Below, piece after piece: positions 42,059 to 43,074 of a stretch of DNA of 64,000 nt. Each line of letters starts with the position of its first letter. The stretch's first letter is position 1. This DNA is from Acidimicrobiales bacterium (GTDB taxonomy: Bacteria > Actinomycetota > Acidimicrobiia > Acidimicrobiales > VFJN01). The notes beneath the pieces are model-generated. The model was not told where the DNA came from. It saw only the letters and a list, made by a program, of their open reading frames with translations, and searched no databases. The position numbers and the translations under genes were made by a program. The stretch lies in the NCBI GenBank assembly GCA_035316325.1, contig DATHJB010000075.1:1-64000 (forward strand), in the 5' to 3' direction.

Positions 42059-42346
42059 GTGCCCGCCGAGACCCATGTCGAACGTGGTCCGCTCGACCGC
42101 CAGCAGGTGTTCGAGCTGATCCGCGATCGTTTGGCCGACATCCTCGAAGTCGAGCCCACGGCCATCAACGAGGGCGATTCGTTCAGCGACGACCTCGAGG
42201 CCGATTCACTCGCTCTGATCGAGTTGGCCGAGGCCTTGGAGGAGGAGCTCAGCGAGCGGACCGTCGGCTTCCGCATCGAAGACGAGGATCTCGAAGACAT
42301 CAAGACCGTCCGTGACGCGGTCGACTACGTGCTCGCTCGCGTTTGA
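42059..42346 (+). CDS. acpP: Acyl carrier protein
   Basis: The 95-residue acidic protein carries the phosphopantetheine site in LEADSLALIEL (Ser about residue 46) between helices FELIRDRLADILEV and ELAEALEEEL. The N-terminus is about 12 residues longer than E. coli AcpP. The start is GTG 42059 with AGGAG seven bases upstream. Nine bases after its stop the reading frame of rnc opens. Confidence 0.93.
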   Translation: MPAETHVERGPLDRQQVFELIRDRLADILEVEPTAINEGDSFSDDLEADSLALIELAEALEEELSERTVGFRIEDEDLEDIKTVRDAVDYVLARV

Positions 42347-42357
42347 AGGATTAGATC

Positions 42358-43074
42358 ATCCAGCTCCCAGTCCCAGCGCTCGACAAGCTCGCAGCGCGCC
42401 TCGGTGTAGAACTACCTGCGACGGAGACCTTGGCGACCGCGCTCGTCCATCGGTCGTGGTGCGCGGAGAACCCCGGCCACGACTCCAACGAGCGTCTCGA
42501 GTTCCTCGGCGACGCCGTGCTGGGCGTGATCATCACCGACTTCTCGTTCCGGGAGTACCCGGAGCTGAGCGAGGGCGAGCTGACCGACGTGCGCAAGGCC
42601 GTCGTCAACGCGGTGACGTTGGCCGAGGTGGCCGACGAGCTCAGCCTGGGTGACCACCTGCTGCTGGGGAAGGGCGAGGAGCAGTCGGGGGGACGGGAGA
42701 AGCCGTCGATCCTGGCCGACGCCCTCGAAGCCGTGATCGGCGTCGTCTACATCGCCGCCGGCATGCCCGAGGCCAACAGCCTGGTGCTGCGGCTGCTGGG
42801 CAGCCGCGTCGCCGAGGCGCACGCCGGCGGTCCCGGCGGCCAGGACTACAAGAGCCGCCTCCAGGAGCTGGTGGCCCGGCACTTCGACGAACCGCCCCGC
42901 TACCACACCGATGCCGAGGGCCCCGATCACGCCCGGCGGTTCCACACCACTGTGTCCGTCGTGGGGCTGCCCCGCGGCAGCGGCGACGGACGATCCAAGA
43001 AGCAGGCCGAGCAGGTCGCAGCGCGGGACGCCTACGCCACGCTCGTGGCCGAGCTTGAGGAGCAAGATGCCTGA
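42358..43074 (+). CDS. rnc: Ribonuclease III, apparently with AUC start codon
   Basis: The enzyme (238 residues from ATC 42358) has the signature NERLEFLGDAVLGV (about 44-57), the second acidic helix SILADALEAVIGV and a C-terminal dsRBD (QDYKSRLQELVARH to KKQAEQVAARDAYA). It processes rRNA and double-stranded RNA. The frame is open only from ATC 42355 after a TAG at 42352; no ATG, GTG or TTG occurs until TTG 42430. Codons before that TTG encode ALDKLAARLGVELP, matching the first helix of other actinobacterial RNase III proteins. AGGA at 42347-42350 is well placed for an ATC start. If TTG is used, the protein loses about 24 residues. Confidence 0.85.
   Translation: MQLPVPALDKLAARLGVELPATETLATALVHRSWCAENPGHDSNERLEFLGDAVLGVIITDFSFREYPELSEGELTDVRKAVVNAVTLAEVADELSLGDHLLLGKGEEQSGGREKPSILADALEAVIGVVYIAAGMPEANSLVLRLLGSRVAEAHAGGPGGQDYKSRLQELVARHFDEPPRYHTDAEGPDHARRFHTTVSVVGLPRGSGDGRSKKQAEQVAARDAYATLVAELEEQDA

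Follow-up and report, generated by a model that had tools for sequence, protein, structure and literature searches.

A likely AUC start codon for the RNase III gene behind acpP, and an apparent near-cognate rnc start recurring in the order Acidimicrobiales

The RNase III gene rnc in the 64,000-nucleotide stretch of DNA analysed here (the window), from an uncultured actinobacterium of the order Acidimicrobiales, likely starts at AUC 42358, and a near-cognate rnc start, mostly in the form of CUG, appears from the sequence comparison to run through the order and not to be limited to the window copy. At the level of sequence, the comparison shows that the usual start codons (ATG, GTG and TTG) are absent, that the AUC site is kept in the family, that the 5' codons are translated, and that the habit does not extend to acpP, plsX and mutM. 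We regard it as quite probable that rnc is expressed from this near-cognate codon by inefficient initiation behind acpP, yielding little RNase III, as one local instance of what the order does habitually.

The acpP–rnc junction contains the following features, given in window coordinates.

42059–42346, plus strand: acpP (acyl carrier protein), directly upstream of rnc, with a GTG start and a TGA stop; Pfam PF00550, 44.9 bits.
42344–42346, plus strand: acpP stop codon TGA, read from the sequence.
42343–42345, plus strand: TTG that overlaps the acpP stop (TTGA); it is in the rnc frame, which TAG closes two codons on.
42347–42350, plus strand: AGGA, Shine-Dalgarno-like, between the acpP stop and rnc.
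42352–42354, plus strand: TAG, the in-frame stop that opens the rnc frame, read from the sequence.
42355–42357, plus strand: first ATC of a tandem pair, spaced 4 bases from AGGA, at a place not common to the relatives.
42358–42360, plus strand: ATC, the proposed rnc start codon, with a homologous ATC in four relatives.
42358–43074, plus strand: rnc, encoding RNase III of 238 aa if read from ATC, with its stop TGA at 43072–43074.
42379–42402, plus strand: predicted helix 1 (residues 8–15, AlphaFold model), encoded upstream of TTG 42430.
42430–42432, plus strand: TTG, the first canonical codon after TAG, at residue 25 and inside predicted helix 2 (residues 22–29).

An earlier note on this DNA had described the rnc frame as opening behind a TAG, with no ATG, GTG or TTG ahead of TTG 42430 and with AGGA seven bases before ATC 42358. 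All of this was confirmed for the frame after TAG 42352–42354, which is followed immediately by ATC 42355 and ATC 42358. The note did not mention the TTG at 42343–42345, which also lies in the rnc frame and is closed by the same TAG. Initiation at this TTG, with the TAG either an assembly error or read through, would have an NTGA overlap, a usual geometry for coupled starts, and 51 of 152 order loci have the same frame relation with a TGA stop; however, four relatives that lack any such TTG, and in which the acpP stop itself lies in the rnc frame, nevertheless carry ATC at the same place, and we consider this start quite improbable. Were the TAG erroneous, the window genome would be ordinary, with TTG 42343 as a coupled start; the relatives would still be exceptional. 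The TAG also speaks, as a feature of the sequence, against simple read-through or a −1 frameshift from acpP. Production of RNase III as an acyl carrier protein fusion, by stop read-through or frameshifting, would suit the four relatives and some other loci, whose acpP stop shares the frame of rnc, but in the window TAG 42352–42354 closes the rnc frame after the end of acpP, and the relation between the two frames varies over the order (leads of 0, 1 and 2 in 24, 69 and 59 of 152 loci), so that no single recoding event fits; we find such a fusion hardly credible. As an observation on its own, window positions 42343–42354 read TTG AAG GAT TAG, a three-codon frame in the rnc frame that ends just before the tandem ATC. 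The RNA of positions 42300–42440 folded no better than shuffled sequences (z +1.1); its minimum-energy fold has a weak hairpin in which GGAU 42348–42351 pairs with AUCC 42358–42361.

The homologous place reads ATC in four other sequences of the family: L002/L031, L032/L251 and L003/L033, from one genus, and L008/L037, from another. Each has the acpP stop, nine bases and then ATC, with an AGG ending seven bases before it (eight before ATC 42358 in the window); L008 has TAA instead of TGA as its acpP stop, and the AGG is still present. All five sequences place the ATC at codon −30/−29 before the HRS motif and contain no ATG, GTG or TTG from the upstream stop to codon −18, and in the four relatives the first usual start comes only after helix 1. 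Of the codons that differ from ATG by one base, ATC 42358 alone is common to all five at an aligned place. A Shine-Dalgarno-like 4-mer precedes 5 of 5 family ATCs versus 11.8% of background positions, a comparison that gives no probability, the five being related, and it precedes 2 of 24 other in-frame ATCs in plsX, acpP and rnc of the window. The Shine-Dalgarno match is short. Taken with the ATC that the four relatives share, these counts go beyond chance. Counted over the family, ATC with this spacing stands at the same place in 5 of 8 loci, spanning three genera. The other three loci (L006, L016 and L017) have no ATC at the aligned place, so AUC is not fixed across the whole family; they share CTG AAT/AAC one codon further upstream, where the CTG is their likely start, and L006 and L016 carry TTG, ATG or GTG at codons −22 to −18.

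The window and most of its relatives are metagenome assemblies, and the window's genus is represented by one genome; judged by the aligned sequences, the missing usual start is not an error peculiar to one assembly. Comparison with relatives, which the earlier note had proposed as a check, revealed no clear ATG or GTG at the place and ATC instead. Two neighbouring codons were weighed against ATC 42358. The adjacent ATC 42355 is likewise near-cognate but follows AGGA by just 4 bases and is not matched in relatives, and GTC 42370, of a kind with GTC starts such as that of Streptomyces sigR (PMC5472188), lies 19 bases from AGGA at a place that reads GTT, GTC, GTC and GTA in relatives. A start at either is unlikely. 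Separately, the metagenome-assembled genome G003 holds two different rnc copies on two contigs (L002 and L251, with 82% and 80% identity to the window); the bin probably mixes two populations, and ATC is present in both copies.

Read from ATC 42358, the product is by its sequence an ordinary bacterial RNase III, with an RIII domain carrying the NERLEFLGD motif and a C-terminal dsRNA-binding domain. It scores 223.6 bits against TIGR02191 (cut-off 166.25), matches the Pfam RNase III and dsRNA-binding domains, and has PDB 2a11 as the nearest solved chain (E 5.4e-53). The TIGR02191 alignment begins at model position 2 with the ATC start and at position 17 with a start at TTG 42430, which would forfeit positions 2–16. 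Over the 16 codons after ATC, the ten pairs among the five family sequences show 32, 34 and 91 differences at codon positions 1, 2 and 3, respectively, an excess at third positions from which the codons between ATC and TTG 42430 are seen to evolve as translated sequence. An AlphaFold model built with 28 aligned sequences (mean pLDDT 90.3; mean 87 for residues 1–10 and for residues 11–20) predicts helices at residues 8–15 and 22–29, and the first of these, ahead of the HRS helix, would be kept only if translation starts upstream of TTG 42430. A start at TTG 42430, leaving the RNase III of this organism without its first helix, would use the first usual codon after TAG, and the shortened protein still passes TIGR02191 at 216.2 bits; yet the codon sits inside predicted helix 2, the codons upstream of it vary at third positions among relatives, and these have no homologous TTG and their first usual start at −12, −7 or −1. 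We consider this start very unlikely. The codon-position test and the position of TTG 42430 within predicted helix 2 bear out the earlier proposal that the 25 codons before it look translated and, together with the ATC of the relatives, support its reading of AUC as the rnc start.

For the survey, rnc codons were counted from the HRS motif of helix 2, and each locus was checked for ATG, GTG or TTG from the upstream in-frame stop down to codon −18. The order set comprised 152 loci from 151 Acidimicrobiales genomes (G003 twice), all anchored and 149 bounded by a stop; these are a selection from the 383 of 397 genomes with an rnc match, so closer RNase III sequences are over-represented. No usual start was present in 46 of the 149 bounded frames, nor within 60 codons in 50 of the 152 loci, and 26 of the 52 sampled families include at least one genome lacking it. 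A shortened enzyme is no option for 16 of the 46, which have no usual start ahead of codon +13 and carry their first one in or after the NERLEFLGD motif or have none up to +60; the shortened version would lack some or all of this catalytic motif, a further point against a start such as TTG 42430. About two thirds of the order loci do have a usual start between those limits; in eight of them it occurs only deep within acpP, so some such codons may be there by chance.

The rest of the phylum was represented by 90 loci from 110 genomes (six members of the order were left out and fourteen others not included), 83 of them bounded. Only 2 of the 83 lacked a usual start (3 of the 90 within 60 codons), and three genomes of the same class but of other orders have ATG or GTG at rnc. 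The two bounded exceptions are L254 and L329. L329 has CTG; L254 has an ATG behind a Shine-Dalgarno sequence in another frame and may reflect an indel.

General laxity of starts in the genomes of the order was rejected by the control genes. A usual start was lacking in none of 143 acpP genes (from the same stretches of the 152 loci), in 1 of 56 plsX genes (L102) and in none of 58 mutM genes, the plsX and mutM sets being drawn from 80 loci and the remainder falling below score or being cut off. The approach also recovered a known case, infC. In the window's genome (L138, G000:C219) infC has no ATG, GTG or TTG at its start, the frame reading TGA CCG GCG ATA GCT, and probably starts at AUA; the other 18 of the 19 loci examined have ATA or ATC at the same place, with ATA in five other genomes of the family and ATC in several other families (in L136 a TTG also stands two codons ahead of it, and in L144 an ATG lies downstream). 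An unusual anti-Shine-Dalgarno sequence and an unusual initiator tRNA were both rejected: the 16S 3' end of the window's genome reads CCTCCTTTCT, which is normal, and its two tRNA-Met genes have the normal GGG/CCC anticodon stem, so altered decoding need not be invoked.

Outside the window's family, the likely rnc start is mostly CUG, often at codon −29. Of the 46 loci without a usual start, 35 have a CTG between −5 and +20 bases from where the acpP stop ends, and 22 have one exactly 29 codons before HRS. In 12 of these 22 it overlaps the acpP stop as CTGA, an overlap by 4 that many other order loci also have. Whatever the frame relation, acpP mostly has a C just ahead of its TGA (13 of 15, 44 of 52 and 45 of 51), so an overlapping CTG is expected from acpP codon use alone, and the overlap was rejected as circular when taken as proof of a CUG start. 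The remaining ten CTGs at −29 begin only after the acpP stop is complete, in several frame relations. For the loci that lack a usual start, the comparison with CTC was limited to codons downstream of the acpP stop; positions −36 to −29 gave 17 CTG and 1 CTC, versus 50 CTG and 58 CTC at the fold leucines (−23, −20 and −16) of the same loci (Fisher 8e-5, a value that ignores kinship and serves as a guide only). The preference for CTG over CTC thus points to a start codon rather than a leucine position. Other candidates are less clear from their sequences: ATA in L124, and ACG, the only candidate in three loci. L234 offers none.

Cells need much acyl carrier protein but little RNase III. In the mechanism that we infer, the ordinary initiator tRNA would read AUC 42358 as the rnc start, and initiation would come from ribosomes ending acpP 11 bases upstream or from 30S subunits drawn by AGGA 42347–42350. 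The geometry is that of a coupled pair, with the start within a few bases of the acpP stop (11 in the window, 9 in relatives). Initiation at AUC would be inefficient, so that little RNase III would be made from an operon whose first product, the acyl carrier protein, must be abundant, and placing a near-cognate start close behind the acpP stop would offer an easy means of setting the ratio of the two. Across the order, rnc would recurrently carry a near-cognate start at or over the acpP stop, mostly CUG and, in most of the window's family, AUC. On this reading the near-cognate start, probably translated by coupling to acpP, would keep RNase III low. The acpP neighbourhood was rejected as a sufficient cause: acpP is upstream of rnc in 20 of the 90 other phylum loci, and all 20 keep a usual start, so coupling to acpP alone does not explain the habit.

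The start may also be real and yet without regulatory meaning, a poor codon that drifts in cheaply under tight acpP coupling. CTG over the acpP TGA follows from acpP codon use, and the identity of the start codon varies between and within families and shifts between genera, which fits weak constraint. Against this, the codon seems to be kept, to judge by the 17:1 ratio of CTG to CTC outside the overlap and by the recurrence of CTG at −29 across several frame relations, and the acpP–rnc neighbours elsewhere in the phylum retain usual starts. We take drift without regulation to be a substantial possibility, if not the one that we favour.

Under the favoured reading, of initiation held low, control of rnc by IF3 is plausible by analogy. 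IF3 disfavours starts outside the usual three, and infC and Streptomyces sigR are held down in this way (PMC5472188); excess IF3 lowers re-initiation downstream of a stop (PMC2268962). We suggest tentatively, as less likely than not, that rnc of Acidimicrobiales is under initiation-factor control, the level of IF3 together with termination on acpP setting the amount of RNase III through CUG or AUC, perhaps also AUA or ACG. If so, RNA processing would be linked to the state of translation, as for infC and sigR, and a whole order would routinely use CUG to start a core bacterial gene.

To our knowledge, very few bacterial genes start outside AUG, GUG and UUG, and a 2017 study reportedly covered all 64 codons as start codons. 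Such starts are known for infC, sigR and pcnB; rnc, whose frame has no ATG, GTG or TTG upstream of the conserved protein, appears from its sequence to be a new case, and in the open-licence PMC literature we found neither a non-standard rnc start nor a CUG start recurring for one gene over an order. Since starts of this kind are invisible to gene finders, the RNase III annotations of these genomes are probably too short or marked partial. One conserved gene apparently with such starts in about half of the order's sampled families, CUG being the commonest, would offer many natural replicates for studying the purpose of a near-cognate start and whether genes besides infC are controlled by IF3.

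In E. coli, pcnB has an AUU start, an RNA-processing enzyme limited by a poor start codon, but this is one gene in enterobacteria and an enzyme other than RNase III. RNase III autoregulation, by cleavage of the mRNA of its own operon in E. coli rnc and Streptomyces absB, likewise keeps RNase III low; it acts through RNA structure, however, whereas the folding of 42300–42440 is not distinguished from that of shuffled sequences. Another parallel is sigR of Streptomyces (PMC5472188), an actinobacterial gene that likewise begins with none of the three usual codons and is tied to the ratio of neighbouring products: its GTC start is repressed by IF3 and found in 32 of 34 genomes. It differs in being a sigma factor gene with GTC and a long Shine-Dalgarno sequence, shown by experiment, whereas rnc encodes a housekeeping nuclease with AUC or CUG, known here from its sequence. 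The gene for IF3, infC, starts with ATT in E. coli and ATC in Streptomyces (PMC5472188). The likeness to rnc is a near-cognate start outside AUG, GUG and UUG kept over a wide group; the difference is that infC encodes the very factor that discriminates against such codons, closing a feedback loop. We know of no comparable start-discriminating role for RNase III. The rnc of L124 has its ATA at codon −36, overlapping the acpP TAG (ATAG) and followed by GCC, and so resembles the infC start ATA GCC.
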